DNA of 38,388 nt. Origin: Actinomycetota bacterium. Lineage in GTDB: Bacteria; Actinomycetota; Thermoleophilia; Solirubrobacterales; Solirubrobacteraceae. The stretch is from positions 1 through 38,388 of the forward strand of contig VAWK01000048.1 in the NCBI GenBank assembly GCA_005885515.1. The letters are read 5' to 3'. The translations under genes were made by a program, and so were the position numbers. A model generated the notes under the pieces. That model saw only the letters and a program-made list of their open reading frames with translations, was not told where the DNA came from and did no database searches. This document shows positions 29,166 through 37,981 of the stretch, in pieces. The stretch's first letter is position 1. Every line of letters begins with the position of its first letter.

Positions 29166-31466
29166 ATGGCCACCCTCTGGCGTAGCGGAGGCCGGCCCAG
29201 GCACGCGCTCGCGCTCGGCGGGGTACGCCCGCGCGCGCTCGCCGTCAGCGTCGCGTGCGTGCTCCTGTCAGGCGGGTCGTCCTTCCTCGCCCCCCTTGCC
29301 CGCGCCGAAGGCCGCTGCGGAAGCCATCCCTGGTGCGACACCTCGCTTTCGCCCGAAGAACGCGCCAGGCTGCTGCTGGGCGCGATGTCACAGTCGGACA
29401 AGGTCGGGGTCCTGACGGGACAGGAAGCGAGCGACGTCGGCATGCCGGCGATCAAGTTCACCGACGGCGCGGTCGGCGCAGGGGGGCTGGGTTCGGGCGC
29501 GCAGGGTGCGACGGCGATGCCGGCCGCGATGGCTCTCGCCGCCAACTTCGATCAGTCGATGGCCGCCGGCTACGGCGCGGTGGTCGGGCAGGAGGTCAAG
29601 CACCGCGGCTTCGACGGCGACTTCGGCCCGACGGTCAACATCATGCGCACGCCGCTCGGCGGACGTACGTTCGAGGCCTACGGCGAGGACCCGTTCCTCT
29701 CCGCGCAGACCGCGGTCGGCTGGATCGACGGCCTGCAATCGCAGGGGGTGATGGCGGACGTCAAGCACTTCGCGGCCAACAACCAGGAGGGCCAGGTCGG
29801 CGTCTCGCCGCTGTTCGGCGTCTACGGCGGGCGTCCTTTCGTGAACGTCCACGTCGATCCGCGCGCGCTGCACGAGATCGAGCTCGGCGCCTTCGAAGCC
29901 GCGGTCACTCAGGCGCACAGCGCGACGGTGATGTGCTCGTACAACCTGCTCGAAGAAAAATATGCATGCGCGAACGCGCCCTTGCTCACAGACATCCTGC
30001 GCCGCCAGTGGGGCTTCGACGGCTTCGTCGTCTCCGACTTCCTCGCCTGCCACGAGACCGAAGCGGATCTCAACGCGGGCCTGAACTTCGACATCGGCAA
30101 CAGCTGCTACACCGCGCCGCAGGTCGAACTCGCGCTCGCCGATGGATCGGTCACCCAGGCGACGTTCGAAGCGCGCGTGTACGAAATCCTCAAGAAGCTG
30201 TTCGGCTTTGGCTTCTTCGATCATCCCTCCTGGCGCAACGACACCGCCCAGGACGACAGGGCGACGGATACCGCCGTCGCCGATCGCTCGGAGGAAGGGG
30301 GCGCGGTGCTGTTGCGTAACCGCGGCGCGCTGCCAATCAACCGCAAGAAGGTGCATTCGATCGCGGTCATCGGCCCGGGGGCCAACCAGTACATCCACGG
30401 CAACGGCTCCTCGCAGGTCAGCCCGTATGAAACGACGACGGCGCTCGCCGGCATCACGGCGCGCGCGGCCGAGGCGGGAATCAAGGTCAGCTACGACGAA
30501 GGTACGAGCGCCGAACGCTCCCGGGCGCTCGCAAGGAGCTCGGACCTTGCGATCGTGGTGGCCGCCGACACCGAGTCGGAGGGAGTCGACAAGCCGTGCA
30601 TGTCGCTGATCGCCCAGTGCAGCGGCGGGCAGGCGACGCCGCCCGACCCGCAGAGCACGCAGCTTGACTTCGGCAACCAGGACCAGCTCATCTCGAGCGT
30701 CGCGACTGTCAACCCGAACACGGTCGTCGTGCTCGAGACGGGCGCCCCGGTGCTGACGCCGTGGCGCGAATCGATCAACGCGCTGCTGGAGGCCTGGTAC
30801 CCAGGCGAGGACGGCGGGACGGCGATCGCACACGTGCTGTTCGGCGACAGCGATCCGGGAGGACGTCTCCCCGCCAGCTTCCCCAAGAGCGAAGCCGACC
30901 TGCCTACCGCGCCGGGGGGCGCGGCCCAGTACCCGGGCACGATCAACCCGGAAGAAAACTGCGAACTGCACAGCTCGGTTCCCTGCCCCTACTACGAGGA
31001 GACCTACGGCGAGGGAGTGCTGATGGGCTACCGCTGGTATGACAACCAGCGCATCGAACCGGCCTATCCGTTCGGGTTCGGACTCTCCTACACGCATTTC
31101 CGCTTCAGCGAACTGGCGGTCGCTCCCGGCACGGGCAACGAACCCGCAAGCACCGTCAGCGTCACCGTGACGAACACCGGCACGCGCAGCGGCTCCGCCG
31201 TACCCGAGCTGTACCTCTCGCTGCCCTCGCTGCCAGGGGTGCCCCAGCCGCCGCGCCAGCTCAAGGGCTTCGCGAAGGTGCAGCTGGCGCCGGGCCAGAG
31301 CCGGCGCGTGAGCATGCCGCTGAACGCGCGCGCGTTCTCCTACTGGTCCGACGCCGCCGGCGGCTGGCGCATCGCACCGGGCTGCGACAAGGTCGGTGTC
31401 GGCAGCTCCTCGCGGTCGCTGTCGCTGAGCGGCAAGATCGCCGTGGCGGGAGGCAGCTGCTCGTAG
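29166..31466 (+). CDS. Secreted glycoside hydrolase family 3 (beta-glucosidase-like)
   Basis: A 766-aa exported enzyme. A long signal region (1-47) ends LARA|EG. The N-terminal GH3 barrel has DGPTVNIMRTPLGGRTFEAYGEDP-type segments, the substrate-binding KHFAANNQE (about 200) and the nucleophile Asp near 291 in GFVVSDFLACHE. The C-terminal alpha/beta sandwich includes GAVLLRN, AVIGPGAN, WYPGEDGGTAIAHVLFGD and PFGFGLSYTHF, followed by a fibronectin-III-like domain (about 660-735). In the acid/base loop an insertion with two Cys (SEGVDKPCMSLIAQCSGGQA) replaces the usual compact sequence, so specificity may differ. It probably releases glucose or another sugar from beta-glucans or glycosides. Confidence 0.94.
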   Translation: MATLWRSGGRPRHALALGGVRPRALAVSVACVLLSGGSSFLAPLARAEGRCGSHPWCDTSLSPEERARLLLGAMSQSDKVGVLTGQEASDVGMPAIKFTDGAVGAGGLGSGAQGATAMPAAMALAANFDQSMAAGYGAVVGQEVKHRGFDGDFGPTVNIMRTPLGGRTFEAYGEDPFLSAQTAVGWIDGLQSQGVMADVKHFAANNQEGQVGVSPLFGVYGGRPFVNVHVDPRALHEIELGAFEAAVTQAHSATVMCSYNLLEEKYACANAPLLTDILRRQWGFDGFVVSDFLACHETEADLNAGLNFDIGNSCYTAPQVELALADGSVTQATFEARVYEILKKLFGFGFFDHPSWRNDTAQDDRATDTAVADRSEEGGAVLLRNRGALPINRKKVHSIAVIGPGANQYIHGNGSSQVSPYETTTALAGITARAAEAGIKVSYDEGTSAERSRALARSSDLAIVVAADTESEGVDKPCMSLIAQCSGGQATPPDPQSTQLDFGNQDQLISSVATVNPNTVVVLETGAPVLTPWRESINALLEAWYPGEDGGTAIAHVLFGDSDPGGRLPASFPKSEADLPTAPGGAAQYPGTINPEENCELHSSVPCPYYEETYGEGVLMGYRWYDNQRIEPAYPFGFGLSYTHFRFSELAVAPGTGNEPASTVSVTVTNTGTRSGSAVPELYLSLPSLPGVPQPPRQLKGFAKVQLAPGQSRRVSMPLNARAFSYWSDAAGGWRIAPGCDKVGVGSSSRSLSLSGKIAVAGGSCS

Positions 31467-31472
31467 TAGGGC

Positions 31473-32390
31473 TCAGCCCTCCCCGTCCCAGTAGTCGAGC
31501 GGCTCGACGCGCGCCCTGACCCCGATACCGCGCAGGCTGACCTTGTTCGAGTCCGGGTACCAGGCGACGTCGTTCGGGTCGCGCGTGCCCCATGCGAGCA
31601 GCGTCAGGCCGCGCTCGCCGGCGATGAACTGGTGCGCGACGCGGGTTCCCGGCGGGCGCGCCACGACATGGCCGGCTTCAACTGCGGGGCGCTCGTCGCC
31701 GAGGCGCAAACTCCCTGCCCCCGACAGCACGACGAAGATCTCCTCCTCGGCGCCGTGGCAGTGGAACGGGCAGGCGCGCGCCCGCGGCGCCACCTCGACG
31801 TGGTTCATCCCGCTCACGGCCGAGCCTGCCGCGGCACCGAGGTCCCGCCAGTGGCTGTCGACACCTCCGTGTCGCATCGGCTGCGGCGGGACGTCCCGCG
31901 TCGCGACGATCGTCGGCACGCGGACCGGCTCGGGGGCGGGCAGCTCAAGCTCGCCCGCCGACGCCTCTCGCTCGAACGGGTTCGGCCCGTCGCCCGGCAG
32001 CCACCGCGGCCCCATCCACCAGGCGTTGGCTCGTGGCAGCCAGACCATGTGCGTGTCGCTGCCGCTGGAGAACGCCAGCACGTCGAGACCCACGTCGCCG
32101 GCGACGATCGTGTGCGACTCGGCGCTCGCGCGGTGGACGATGCAGTCGCCGGGCGCCACGGCGTAGGTCCGGCCGTCCTGCCAGCTCAGCCCGATGCCGC
32201 CGAGCACGTAAAAGAGCTCCTCCTCATCGGCGTGGACGTGCACCGGCATCGCCCGCTCACCCGGGGCCATCCGGTATCGACTGAGTCCCGCCCGCACCGC
32301 GCCCGCCGCGGCGCCGAGGCGCTGGCGCGATCCCTGCAGAGGGCCGCGGTCAATGCGCACCCATTCGACGTCGTCCCAGTGGGCCAGCAT
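31473..32390 (-). CDS. Bicupin protein
   Basis: A 305-aa protein with two cupin domains. The first has PVHVHADEEELFYVLGG at 49-65 and PGDCIVHRASAESH; the second has PFHCHGAEEEIFVVLSG at about 205-221 and AGHVVARPPGTRVAHQF. Both carry the HxH...E and distal His metal ligands, so two metal sites are possible. No signal peptide. Bicupins of this kind include quercetinase-, oxalate-decarboxylase- and isomerase-like enzymes as well as sugar-binding proteins; I cannot narrow it further. It is convergent with GH3 (6 bp gap) and divergent from an aldo-keto reductase. Confidence 0.88.
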   Translation of the reverse strand: MLAHWDDVEWVRIDRGPLQGSRQRLGAAAGAVRAGLSRYRMAPGERAMPVHVHADEEELFYVLGGIGLSWQDGRTYAVAPGDCIVHRASAESHTIVAGDVGLDVLAFSSGSDTHMVWLPRANAWWMGPRWLPGDGPNPFEREASAGELELPAPEPVRVPTIVATRDVPPQPMRHGGVDSHWRDLGAAAGSAVSGMNHVEVAPRARACPFHCHGAEEEIFVVLSGAGSLRLGDERPAVEAGHVVARPPGTRVAHQFIAGERGLTLLAWGTRDPNDVAWYPDSNKVSLRGIGVRARVEPLDYWDGEG

Positions 32391-33417: not shown

Positions 33418-34191
33418 TCAAGTGGCGATCTGAGGGCCCTGAACTTCGCTTGCCCAGGAGGTGATCACCCGGCCAACCTCGGCCCCCGACAGCTGGAGGA
33501 GGTCGTTGTGACCGACGCGATGGAGGACGTGCATGCGCTTCGGTCCTTGCGCGCCTTCAAACAGAGCCCTGCCGTGCGAGAGCGGCACGGTCTCGTCGCG
33601 ATCGCCGTGAAGGACCAGGAGCGGAGCGCGCAGGTCGCCGATGTGCCGCACCACCGGATAGGCATCGGGGACGAGCGACGCTGGAAAGAACGGATAGTGC
33701 AGGCGGGCGAGGTCCCGCACGCAGGTGAACGCCGACAGCAGCAAGAGGCCAGCGGGGGGGCGCTCGAGCGCGAGGTTCAGCGCCACGGCGCCGCCCAGCG
33801 ACTCGCCGAGGTAGAAGACGCGCCCAGCGTCGATGCCCGGCTGCGCAAGCAGGCAGGCCAGTGCCGCGCGAGCATCTCGGTAGGTGCCCTGCTCGCTCGG
33901 CCGGCCGCTGCTGCGGCCGTAGCCGCGGTAGTCGAACAGCAGCACGTCAAATCCCACCGCCGTCAGCAGATCGGCGTGGAGGATCCGGTCACCGACATTG
34001 CCGGCGTTGCCGTGGCAGAGCAACAGATGGCCCAGCGGCTCGGTGCGGGCGGCGATCCACCAGCCATGCAGTTGCTCGCCATCGTCGGTCTCGAGGATTA
34101 GGTCGCGCGACTCCAGTCCCGCCTGGCCGGGCGTCTCGAGGATCCGCCGGGAAGGGAAGTAGAGCAGCGAGTGAAGCAGCGCGCGAATCAT
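33418..34191 (-). CDS. Alpha/beta hydrolase (BEM46/ABHD13-like)
   Basis: A 257-aa hydrolase. The N-terminal hydrophobic segment with FPSRR and the motif LLLCHGNAGNVGDR (oxyanion region) match the ABHD13/BEM46 group. The nucleophile elbow is GESLGG (Ser131), the acid Asp199 lies in HGDRDETVPLSHG and the His228 in RVGHNDLL, so the triad is complete. The family likely acts on lipids or acyl thioesters at the membrane. The ATG at 34191 overlaps the stop of the endonuclease V-like gene as ATGA, so both are translationally coupled. A start nine bases upstream is also open. Confidence 0.92.
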   Translation of the reverse strand: MIRALLHSLLYFPSRRILETPGQAGLESRDLILETDDGEQLHGWWIAARTEPLGHLLLCHGNAGNVGDRILHADLLTAVGFDVLLFDYRGYGRSSGRPSEQGTYRDARAALACLLAQPGIDAGRVFYLGESLGGAVALNLALERPPAGLLLLSAFTCVRDLARLHYPFFPASLVPDAYPVVRHIGDLRAPLLVLHGDRDETVPLSHGRALFEGAQGPKRMHVLHRVGHNDLLQLSGAEVGRVITSWASEVQGPQIAT

Positions 34192-34880
34192 TGCGGGCAA
34201 TGTTCCTCTGCCGCTCTCGCCCGACGCGCCTCGCGTCGAGCTCGCCGCAACGGCTCCGGCGTGCGCGCGCGCCGGATCGACGCGAGCACGACATGTGCGG
34301 CCGCGTCGAGGTCGGTGCGCCAGCCGGCGTGGACGACGAGCGGTCGCACTCCAGGGCGGGTTCGCAGCAGGCGCGCCACCTCACTCCCGTCCAGCAGGAG
34401 CGGGCTCATCGCCCCACTCTCAGGCGGCGCTTCTGCGCCCTGCGCCAGGAGCGGCCGGTCGGTCACGCCAATGCTCGGGAGGTCGAGCACCGCACCGAGG
34501 TGAAGCGCCAGGCCGGCACCGTACGGGTGGTCGCGCCCGGTGGCGTTCGCGATGATGACCTCGGGCTCCGTCGGCAACGCCCCTACCGCCGCCGCCAGCA
34601 ACGGCCCCTCACGCAGCGCCAGCACTCCGGGCTGGTAGGGAGCGCCCGCCCGACCGCGTGTGATCGCCGTCCCGGTGAGGTGGCGGTCAGCGCGCATAGC
34701 CACCGCTGCGGCCCAGCCGGGCTCGCCGGCGCGGCCCCGGCCGTGGACGCCGCGCGCAAAGCAGACAAAGCAGCCGGCGACGAGCGGCCGCGCACCGGCC
34801 GGCCGCCAGGGCGCGGGCCGAGAGCTCGCGAGCTCTCGCTGGACGTGGATGAGCTCGGCGTGCGTCTGCGGCCACATCAT
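34188..34880 (-). CDS. Divergent endonuclease V homologue (catalytic Asp residues replaced)
   Basis: A 230-aa protein. It follows the endonuclease V (Nfi) domain along its length: LIHVQRELA at the start, PYQPGVLALREGPLL (81-95; Nfi has PYIPGFLSFREYPALL), GRDHPYGAGLALHLGAVLDL (115-134; Nfi HPRRLGVASHFG) and PSIGVTDRPLLAQG. Nfi cleaves next to deaminated bases using Asp35, Glu80 and Asp110. Here Glu91 is kept, but Asp35 is Phe38 (GCFVCF in place of GVDVGF), Asp110 is Asn112 (ANATG in place of VDGHG) and the Lys of GVAK is Asp141. Metal-dependent cleavage is doubtful; binding or another activity remains possible. Two adjacent ATGs (34880, 34877) are candidate starts. Coupled to the hydrolase gene. 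Confidence 0.8.
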   Translation of the reverse strand: MMWPQTHAELIHVQRELASSRPAPWRPAGARPLVAGCFVCFARGVHGRGRAGEPGWAAAVAMRADRHLTGTAITRGRAGAPYQPGVLALREGPLLAAAVGALPTEPEVIIANATGRDHPYGAGLALHLGAVLDLPSIGVTDRPLLAQGAEAPPESGAMSPLLLDGSEVARLLRTRPGVRPLVVHAGWRTDLDAAAHVVLASIRRARTPEPLRRARREARRARAAEEHCPQ

Positions 34881-35008: not shown

Positions 35009-36067
35009 ATGCTCGACCTCGCAACGCCGTTGCTGGTGATCGTGTTCGCTGCGGGTGCGGGCGCAACCTGGGTGGCTGGGATCAGGCTGTCGAAGACGAC
35101 GGATGCGCTCGACGTGCGGTTCGGTCTCGGCGAGGAGCTAGGCGGGATCCTGCTGCTGGCGGTCGCCGGCACCCTCCCCGAGCTCGCGATCACGGTGGCG
35201 GCCGCCGCGCAGGGCGATCTAAGCCTCGCCGCCGGCAACCTGATCGGCGGGATAGCGGTCCAGACGATGGTGCTCGTGTTCTGTGACCTCGCGGCAGGGC
35301 GCGAGCGTCCGTTGAGCTTCCTCGTCGGGGCGCTGACGCCGGTGCTCGAGGGGCTGCTGGTGGTGGTCGTGGTCTCGGCGGTGTTGATGGGGGCGCTGCT
35401 TCCGCGGTCGGCAGCCATCGGCGGCGTCGTAAGCCCGGCGTCCGTCGCGATCGTTGTGGTCTGGCTGGGCGGCGTGGTCGTGATCAACCGGGTGCGAAAG
35501 ACTCCGCGCTGGAGTGGCTCGATGCCCGGCAGCCAGCCAGGGCGCCGCAACCGCCGACAGCCCCATCCGCGAGCAACCCACCCCTACGGCGAGCGCTCGA
35601 CAGCGCGGGTGGCGACATACTTCGCAGCCGCGTGCGCCGTGACGCTCGTCGCTGGGGTGGCGCTCGAGCTGAGCGCCGAAGCACTGGCCAGCCGGGCGGG
35701 CATCAACGGGGTCATATTCGGGGCCACCGTGCTCGCTAGCGCGACCGCGCTGCCGGAGATCAGCTCCGGTTTCGCCGCCGTCAAGCTGGGCGACAACGCG
35801 CTGGCGATGGGAGACATCTTCGGTGGCAACGCATTCCAGCTGTGCCTCTTCCTGCTCGCCGATCTGATCGCGGGATCTCCCGTGCTGCCGACCACGGGTC
35901 GCCTGAACGGCTGGCTTGCCTCCCTAGGCGTGGCGCTGACCGCCGTGTATGCCGGGGGAGTGGTCGGCCGGCCCTACCGATGCGTGGCGCGGCTTGGACC
36001 GGACTCGATATTGGCGATCGCGATCTTCGCCGCCGGCATCGTGGGACTCGCCCTGCTTCCCCAGTAG
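35009..36067 (+). CDS. Ca2+/cation antiporter (CaCA family) membrane protein
   Basis: A 352-aa protein with about ten or eleven helices in two halves. Each half contains an alpha-repeat with the family PE motif: GTLPELAITVAAAAQGD (about 54-70) with NLIGGIAVQ, and ATALPEISSGFAAVKLGDN with GDIFGGNAFQL (about 244-275). The two halves are joined by a hydrophilic basic loop (about 165-200, RNRRQPHPRATHPYGERS), where regulation or membrane orientation signals may lie. It exchanges Ca2+ (or Na+/K+) for H+ or Na+ across the cytoplasmic membrane. AAGG is found 6 nt before the ATG. Confidence 0.92.
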   Translation: MLDLATPLLVIVFAAGAGATWVAGIRLSKTTDALDVRFGLGEELGGILLLAVAGTLPELAITVAAAAQGDLSLAAGNLIGGIAVQTMVLVFCDLAAGRERPLSFLVGALTPVLEGLLVVVVVSAVLMGALLPRSAAIGGVVSPASVAIVVVWLGGVVVINRVRKTPRWSGSMPGSQPGRRNRRQPHPRATHPYGERSTARVATYFAAACAVTLVAGVALELSAEALASRAGINGVIFGATVLASATALPEISSGFAAVKLGDNALAMGDIFGGNAFQLCLFLLADLIAGSPVLPTTGRLNGWLASLGVALTAVYAGGVVGRPYRCVARLGPDSILAIAIFAAGIVGLALLPQ

Positions 36068-36633: not shown

Positions 36634-36711
36634 GCTGTGCCCAGGCCACGCGCCGGATCGGCGCGTGAGACCGCCTACGCACGGGGGGCGAGTGTTTGTG
36701 CGCCGGGGGAA

Positions 36712-36717
36712 TAGCGT
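36712..36717 (+). promoter_or_regulatory. -10 hexamer TAGCGT of the GH63-type gene
   Basis: TAGCGT ends 7 nt before the ATG at 36725, which itself begins an ATGAC-GT-GTCAT inverted repeat (36725-36736). This predicts a leaderless mRNA with a symmetric site on the transcription start. Confidence 0.4.
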
Positions 36718-36724
36718 CCTACAG

Positions 36725-37981
36725 ATGACGTGTCATCTCCGGCGCGCTCGAGCCAACAGCCTGGTCCGCCGCTACCGAGACATGCCGCCGGAGCAGCGGC
36801 GCCACGCCGTTGAGGCGGCGAGTCGGCGCATCCTTGAGCGCAACTGGGTCGCGACGCCAGGATTCACGGTGCCCAACCGAAGGAAGTATCCGTGGCAGTG
36901 GCTTTGGGACTCCTGTTTTCACGCCGTCGCCTGGAGTCGCCTTGGCGACCCTCGGGGCGTCAGGGAGCTGGAGAGCGTCTTCTCACTGCAGCTTCCCAGC
37001 GGCTTTGTTCCACACATGGGCTACTGGGCCAAACCCAAGGCGTCACTCGCGTTGTGGCATGTTCGCGGTCGGTCAGACATCACGCAGCCACCGATGTATG
37101 GCCACGCATTGCGCGTGTTGGCCGAACGTGGATTTGATGTCGAGCATCTACGTGACGCCGCCACGGCAGGGCTCGACTACCTCTTCGAACATCGTCGGGA
37201 TCCTGGCTCGGGCCTTATCCGCGTGGTCCACCCGTGGGAGACGGGCTGCGATGACAGTCCGCGCTGGGATGGATGGCACGCCGAGCCATTCAAGGAGCGG
37301 CGCTGGAACGCCAAGAAGAGAGAGCTGGTCCGATCGATTCGCATTCGGGATGGCGCCGCGTGTGGAAATCCCGGTTTCGATGTCGGCTCGGCGGGGTTCA
37401 GCGCTCTGGTCGCGTTCAACGCTTGCGAGCTCGCCGCATTCACCCGTAACACGGATCTTCTGTCGAACGCGTCCAAAGTGGTCGAGGCGATCGACGCCCA
37501 CTGGGTGGACTCTCGACACACGTGGAGCGATGTCTGTCTCGCCGGTCCCCACAACACCTCTGCGGTCCGCACTCTCGATGGACTGTTCCCGGTGCTGGTC
37601 AGCGAGAACCCACGCTATGTCGATGTCGCATTTGCGGAGATCTTCGAGCCGCGTTCCTTCTGGCGCCCCTTCGGCCCCTCAGGGACGTCAGCAGACGAAC
37701 CCACCTATGACCCAGGCCGATACTGGCGAGGCGATGCATGGCCGCAGGAGATCTATCTCCTCATGGTTGCCGCGACGCGGTCTGGACGCCACGCGGAGGC
37801 TGTGAGGCTGGCAGAGAAGCTGCTCGAGGGCTGCGTGGGGTCTCGATATGCGGAGCGCTGGAATCCCGAGACGGGTGCGGGTCTTGGCGCGATTCCGCAG
37901 GGCTGGGCGGCGCTGGCGGCCGAGGCAACGCCCGGTTGGGACGGACGTGAGCCGCAGCCCGCAGGCCTGCAGGGTTCCTAG
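36725..37981 (+). CDS. Glucosylglycerate hydrolase-like protein (GH63, MGH1-type)
   Basis: A 418-aa cytoplasmic (alpha/alpha)6-barrel enzyme without signal peptide. Motifs of the GH63/MGH1-type clade are KYPWQWLWDSCFHAVAWSRLGD (54-75), LSRSDI-like QPPMYGHALRVL, HPWETGCDDSPRWD (about 168-181, holding the likely catalytic acid), the YWRGDAWP loop (about 332-340) and WNPETGAGLGAIPQGW near the C-terminus. Members hydrolyse glucosylglycerate or mannosylglycerate, compatible solutes, during recovery from nitrogen or salt stress. Third-position GC is visibly lower than in neighbours, and both flanks are gene remnants, which suggests acquisition by transfer. A start at 36665 is possible but lacks a promoter. 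Confidence 0.85.
   Translation: MTCHLRRARANSLVRRYRDMPPEQRRHAVEAASRRILERNWVATPGFTVPNRRKYPWQWLWDSCFHAVAWSRLGDPRGVRELESVFSLQLPSGFVPHMGYWAKPKASLALWHVRGRSDITQPPMYGHALRVLAERGFDVEHLRDAATAGLDYLFEHRRDPGSGLIRVVHPWETGCDDSPRWDGWHAEPFKERRWNAKKRELVRSIRIRDGAACGNPGFDVGSAGFSALVAFNACELAAFTRNTDLLSNASKVVEAIDAHWVDSRHTWSDVCLAGPHNTSAVRTLDGLFPVLVSENPRYVDVAFAEIFEPRSFWRPFGPSGTSADEPTYDPGRYWRGDAWPQEIYLLMVAATRSGRHAEAVRLAEKLLEGCVGSRYAERWNPETGAGLGAIPQGWAALAAEATPGWDGREPQPAGLQGS

Follow-up and report, generated by a model that had tools for sequence, protein, structure and literature searches.

An endonuclease V-fold protein of Solirubrobacteraceae that lacks the canonical metal-binding residues: a candidate nucleic acid or nucleotide binder

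Introduction

What might a protein do that has the fold of endonuclease V (EndoV) and lacks most of the residues, among them Asp35 (E. coli numbering), by which that enzyme holds its metal ions? The question is raised by a gene on contig VAWK01000048.1 of a Solirubrobacteraceae genome (assembly GCA_005885515.1; 2.69 Mb in 79 contigs, 92% complete), of which positions 1 to 38,388, the whole stretch that was analysed, are called the window below. The original prediction described the product as an EndoV homologue with two of three catalytic aspartates lost, coupled to an overlapping alpha/beta hydrolase, and took it for either a binder of deaminated bases or an enzyme with changed chemistry. Binding and changed chemistry remain the two live readings, and from sequence comparison we lean, at somewhat less than even confidence, towards an EndoV-derived binder of nucleic acids or nucleotides that does without metal-dependent cleavage, with the hydrolase as a chance neighbour. 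Papers are cited by PMC number.

Results

The gene and the residues at the canonical catalytic positions are as follows.

34188..34880, minus strand: EndoV-fold gene without the metal-binding residues (230 aa, ATG start)
34767..34769, minus strand: codon 38, Phe; catalytic Asp35 (E. coli) or Asp43 (T. maritima) in canonical EndoV, by sequence and profile–profile alignment
34608..34610, minus strand: codon 91, Glu; equivalent of Glu89, by alignment
34545..34547, minus strand: codon 112, Asn; Asp110 in canonical EndoV, by alignment
34236..34238, minus strand: codon 215, Arg; fourth catalytic position (His214 in T. maritima, Asp210 in E. coli)

The window protein scores 125.7 bits against the Pfam family Endonuclease_5 (PF04493; cut-off 23.4), a whole-domain profile–profile alignment places it in the EndoV fold with a probability of 100, and the fold motifs PYQPGVLALRE and HPYGAGLALHLG, which had been said to be retained, are both present. 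Residue equivalences and counts come from an alignment of 92 distinct relatives, here called the clade, and 27 canonical EndoVs, and the MMWP start agrees with the relatives (W in 84/92, P in 84/92). Asp35 and Glu89 are in E. coli numbering; the other residue numbers for E. coli and T. maritima follow PMC4650699 together with sequence alignments. The fourth catalytic residue, His214 or Asp210 according to the same source, was located by alignment, and codon coordinates were counted from the start at 34880.

Sequence alignment and the whole-domain profile–profile alignment both place Phe38, Glu91, Asn112 and Asp141 at Asp35, Glu89, Asp110 and Lys139, as had been proposed. The changes at the Asp35 and Asp110 positions are confirmed, but the count of two in three was too low: the catalytic loss is larger in the alignment, since the fourth residue is also replaced, by Arg215. 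Where the metal-binding set would be Asp35, Glu89, Asp110 and a fourth Asp or His, the window protein has F38, E91, N112 and R215, and it is unlikely, on its sequence, to be an ordinary EndoV nuclease.

Position 38 is Phe in 65 of the 92 clade members, Trp in 14, Tyr in 5 and another residue in 8, and acidic in none; profile–profile alignment lays this aromatic column onto the canonical first Asp. (In the row of locus L023, which contains a frame change, the residue aligned to position 38 is spurious; the other piece reads GGCFVCF.) Glu occupies position 91 in 67/92, while 23/92 carry a non-acidic, mostly hydrophobic residue; position 112 is Asp in 53, Asn in 38 and Ala in 1, the first two alternating through 14 or more changes across the tree. 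The expectation that Phe38 and Asn112 might define a clade therefore holds for the loss of Asp35, which 0/92 retain, and fails for Asn112, which alternates with Asp. The Lys139 position, Asp141 in the window protein, is filled by His (55), Asp (21), Arg (7), Asn (6) or others (3), and position 215 is Arg in 91/91 readable members. At least one carboxylate stands at 91 or 112 in 91/92 (the exception is L101; Fisher p 7e-6 with ancestry ignored), an independent-pairs test of 6 pairs at most was not significant, and an interplay of E91 and D112 is a hint only.

The loss of the first Asp marks one clade in these sequences and is not private to the window gene. Scores against the clade profile split into 230-358 bits for the clade and 111-144 for canonical EndoVs, with two truncated clade pieces (L117 and L026) between them, and the clade forms one side of a branch with a Shimodaira–Hasegawa-like approximate likelihood ratio support of 100, a split that holds after removal of eleven active-site columns. 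The trees, of 91 and 90 of the 92 clade rows with 22/27 canonical rows, came from a quick search without bootstrap in which some rows were flagged for composition, and were rooted on the canonical rows, all of the same phylum. The rows derive from 140 open reading frame (ORF) matches, of which 106 were of clade type (92 after removal of 14 exact duplicates), 27 were canonical and 7 were excluded as partial or weak (L026 and L004 with two pieces apiece; L117, L023 and L027 with one). The canonical set, 20 best-scoring non-clade matches in the phylum sample plus 7 from the class, does not represent EndoV fairly; the loci fetched by pattern are the best 80 of 112 confirmed, and L003 ends at a contig end. 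L027 (genome G236) encodes an EndoV-like protein that is more distant still, neither canonical nor clade: its first position is Asp (LALDCHY) and the HP motif is missing.

By record titles the clade occurs in ten phyla: Actinomycetota, Acidobacteriota, Armatimonadota, Chloroflexota, Verrucomicrobiota, Neomarinimicrobiota (Fidelibacterota), Myxococcota, Dormiibacterota, Sysuimicrobiota and, in one bin, Bacillota. Many carriers are metagenome bins; named strains include Kribbella, Nocardioides, Actinopolymorpha, Haloechinothrix, Jiangella, Geodermatophilus and others. Within the window's order a family match was found in 10/232 genomes, all of clade type and one in fragments, with canonical EndoV in 0; in the class sample, matches in 23/399 genomes comprise 7 canonical, 15 of clade type (some partial) and 1 uncertain. 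The gene is present in 3/24 genomes of the window's genus, the others being G002 and G023 (58% complete). The window and G002 copies share 55% identity and are not sisters in the tree, where branches near the window are weakly supported, a pattern that fits gain by transfer or repeated loss. Elsewhere, EndoV-like genes lie in pieces in two frames, through decay or sequence error, on contig 33 of G484, which has an unbroken copy on contig 99, and on contig 129 of G060 (L004).

Besides codon 215, newly conserved residues of the clade lie in the following segments, among others.

34530..34532, minus strand: codon 117, Asp; 92/92 in the clade, Ala/Val in canonical EndoV
34455..34463, minus strand: codons 140-142, Thr-Asp-Arg (T-x-R in the clade); A/P-Lys-S/T/N in canonical EndoV
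34317..34331, minus strand: codons 184-188, His-Ala-Gly-Trp-Arg (H-x-x-W-R in the clade), by alignment

At 18 positions, T114, D117, T140, R142, H184, W187 and R215 among them, the clade residue is held by 88% or more of the members and by 15% or less of the canonical EndoVs; D117 and T140 are each found in 92/92, and Arg188 in 86/92 as well as in 10/27 canonical EndoVs. A further 21 positions are common to both groups, for example Tyr82, Gly85, Arg90, Gly115, His118 and Gly123. The window protein carries 18/18 of the clade marks and 19/21 of the common positions, with Tyr for Arg120 and Ala for Pro151. The wedge tyrosine (Y82) is present in 92/92 members, and five of the six base-pocket positions retain their residue in at least 88/92; the sixth, Gly111, is Ala in 85/92, as it is in 6/27 canonical EndoVs.

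That the gene is selected and not decayed had been claimed, and the claim is upheld. Nonsynonymous divergence (dN) was below synonymous divergence (dS) in 16/16 hand-picked close clade pairs, with ratios by the NG86 method of 0.10-0.37, alike for pairs with Asp112, with Asn112 and with a hydrophobic residue at 91; the window gene is not among these pairs, and its nearest relative, at 61% identity, is too distant for a useful dS. Decay could be read from the patchy presence in the order, where one of the ten copies is in pieces, and from Tyr120 in the window copy. We give it almost no credence in view of the open reading frame, the full set of 18 signature residues, an end branch of 0.54 that was not flagged as long (median 0.37) and the dN/dS values of the clade.

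The genes on either side of the EndoV-like gene are the following.

33418..34191, minus strand: alpha/beta hydrolase (Hydrolase_4), downstream neighbour with an ATGA overlap; not a conserved partner
35009-36067: sodium/calcium exchanger, upstream of the EndoV-like gene, divergent

The ATGA overlap is real (34188-34191), yet the coupling to the hydrolase that had been read from it is not borne out, nor is the neighbour kept in the clade. Together with the shared strand, the overlap would suit a two-gene unit in which the EndoV-like protein acts with the hydrolase, and at L035 a related hydrolase frame (68.7 bits) on the same strand starts about 265 bases downstream. This is, however, the only locus of 80, searched with up to 8 kb of flanking sequence, in which a clearly related hydrolase lies close by; three further matches are weak (21-23 bits) and about 2-4 kb away, G002 and the incomplete G023 hold weak partial matches only and no close copy, and about half of the neighbours share the gene's direction (37/81 downstream, 36/78 upstream). 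We regard such a unit as scarcely credible.

A general partner gene was likewise rejected, as no family recurs throughout the clade among the neighbours compared. In an all-against-all comparison of 6258 ORFs around the 80 loci, clusters of 50, 11 and 9 loci lay without exception on the minus strand, for the most part across the EndoV-like gene, and are read as antisense frames; the others were one unidentified cluster of 15 loci, which occurred on either strand and at no constant distance, a cluster of 7 loci with a short-chain dehydrogenase, and clusters of 6 or fewer. By Pfam, no family exceeded 5 among the nearest neighbours scanned (71/81 downstream, 70/78 upstream; maxima 5 of 71 and 4 of 70), the genes having been called by a simple codon-position script and the scanned set excluding some short, duplicate or same-family neighbours. 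A DUF72 gene adjoins the EndoV-like gene in about four loci (L044 and, by position, L045, L052 and L073; a cluster of 4 in the flank comparison, 3 by Pfam) and is the sole neighbour that seems to be kept within a lineage. A second domain was absent from 7/8 clade members with long open frames that were scanned. At L114:583-3684 (+) the frame of the EndoV-like gene continues without a stop into a class III aminotransferase, which is either a fusion or a stop lost in assembly.

A match above 230 bits, read as canonical EndoV, occurs in 4/31 clade-bearing genomes tested (31 of the 80 loci); in the window's genome, at its 92% completeness, no canonical EndoV was found beside the single EndoV-like gene, and carriers that showed no second EndoV match include strains of Actinopolymorpha, Jiangella and Haloechinothrix. 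A role as regulator of canonical EndoV is thus unlikely in general. Two phage and 15 plasmid records match at less than 60% identity and at most 71% query coverage, as a canonical EndoV would, and 0 of 348 candidate stretches in viral contigs could be confirmed as a clade member; as none was found in these phage, plasmid and viral-contig comparisons, a mobile element or phage gene was rejected. Also near the gene, and with no connection to it that we could see, are a double-cupin protein (31473-32390, -), a glycoside hydrolase family 3-like protein assigned by eye (29166-31466, +) and an MGH1-like glycoside hydrolase (36665-37981, +).

Discussion

We propose that in a patchily spread clade of EndoV-fold proteins two-metal phosphodiester hydrolysis has probably been given up, while the old pocket may still hold a base of RNA, DNA or a nucleotide, hypoxanthine or another purine being the likeliest. 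A new basic cluster of R142, H184, R188 and R215, beside D117–H118, could grip the neighbouring phosphate and so substitute for the metal and Lys139. The clade protein would then be a binder or marker with no metal-dependent cutting, and the adjoining hydrolase would be a chance neighbour. Mouse Asp52 corresponds to the first catalytic Asp. The D52A variant of mouse EndoV lost cleavage and shifted inosine RNA more strongly than the wild type (PMC4842958), and a wedge-tyrosine mutant of plant EndoV was impaired (PMC8526164). With the first position changed naturally, the wedge tyrosine in 92/92 members and most of the pocket kept, an EndoV-derived binder appears to be the simplest reading.

Several observations weigh against that reading. 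The strict conservation of the new polar residues suggests a demanding ligand or another reaction, and the new sites are conserved like a catalytic site, beyond what a relaxed pseudoenzyme would usually require, which speaks for chemistry no less than for binding. The acid kept at 91 or 112 could serve a one-metal or acid–base role; Tyr120 of the window protein is unusual, Arg being found there in 90/92 clade members and 27/27 canonical EndoVs; and purifying selection was computed for clade pairs only. The conservation is itself partly selected at positions 111-119 and 133-142, since the 80 loci were retrieved by patterns containing RDHP and GVT-x-R; the 21 members found by whole-profile searches only agree with them (D117, T140 and R142 each 21/21; H184, W187 and R215 20/20 readable). 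Endo_dU, lastly, provides a precedent for other chemistry, as it cuts without the usual tetrad on an EndoV-like fold (PMC11585767). It is possible, if on balance doubtful, that D117–H118, H184, W187, R142, R188 and R215 form a new metal-free active site on the EndoV pocket that recognises or processes a modified purine of RNA or DNA by undescribed chemistry in a widespread bacterial family.

Among the functional alternatives, Endo_dU is the model for the one we take most seriously, though we think it unlikely: the rebuilt site (D117–H118, H184, R142/R188/R215) might cut at a deaminated or modified base with no metal, much as Endo_dU, which lacks the usual tetrad, cuts deoxyuridine DNA even when EDTA is present (PMC11585767). 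No homology to Endo_dU (DUF99) was seen, however, beyond the shared fold. Matches to its profile (PF01949) reach 21.8 and 19.2 bits, the former being the highest among 8 clade frames scanned, below the cut-off of 32.7 and over the profile end only, and for the window protein this comparison by profile gave no match at E 0.01. A more conventional nuclease with a shifted metal site, liganded by Glu91/Asp112, D117 or an Asp/Glu at 53, would make use of the acids that persist (E91 in 67/92, D112 in 53/92, D117 in 92/92, one of the first two in 91/92). It must contend with Asn112 in 38/92, a non-acidic residue 91 in 23/92, a first Asp in 0/92 and the dead mouse D52A (PMC4842958). Nor does any of the 92 come near the deoxyribonuclease V equivalog cut-off: the best E is 7.3e-41, against about 1e-67 for 230 bits by a conversion made by hand. 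On the two NCBIfam equivalog profiles (cut-offs 230 or 300 bits) the window protein scores 112.5 and 91.7 bits and the best clade E values are 7.3e-41 and 2.4e-32, while the canonical control L011 passes the deoxyribonuclease V cut-off with 257 bits. We consider a shifted metal site very improbable.

Binding or transformation of a free nucleotide (e.g. IMP, ITP or a dinucleotide) in place of a polynucleotide, with the pocket kept and the basic cluster holding phosphates, is improbable to a lesser degree. Lys139 and His214 lock the 5' phosphate in the T. maritima enzyme (PMC4650699). Both are replaced in the clade, so the phosphate side of the site appears rebuilt. The wedge tyrosine, whose role is strand separation, would go unexplained in 92/92 members, however, and neighbour families recur in at most 5/71 downstream and 4/70 upstream positions.

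An account of such a clade without the metal site was not found among the matches listed by our search of mostly open-access literature, and PF04493 is treated as one cluster in PMC3985635. The Pfam profile counts the clade as endonuclease V, and genome-based statements on the repair of deaminated adenine would consequently include a protein that is very likely incapable of it, which touches Actinomycetota, Armatimonadota, Acidobacteriota and others. A clade protein that binds inosine without cutting would be a natural bacterial inosine reader; one that cuts without metal would be a second case beside Endo_dU, with a mechanism testable by comparison.

Set beside endonuclease V itself (Nfi; PF04493, NF008629), the clade lacks the first Asp and Lys139, has Asn or Asp at 110 and Arg at the fourth position, has gained D117/T140/R142/H184/W187/R188, and forms a separate branch far below the equivalog cut-offs. 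The D110N variant of the T. maritima enzyme (PDB 6ozf) is reportedly an inactivating point mutant. The window protein is naturally changed at that position and at that of mouse D52A, and, unlike these mutants, in which the other residues are intact, it is changed on the phosphate side as well. The clade resembles Endo_dU (DUF99, PF01949) in its EndoV-like RNase H fold, in having no conserved first Asp and in the basic nature of the fourth residue (PMC11585767).
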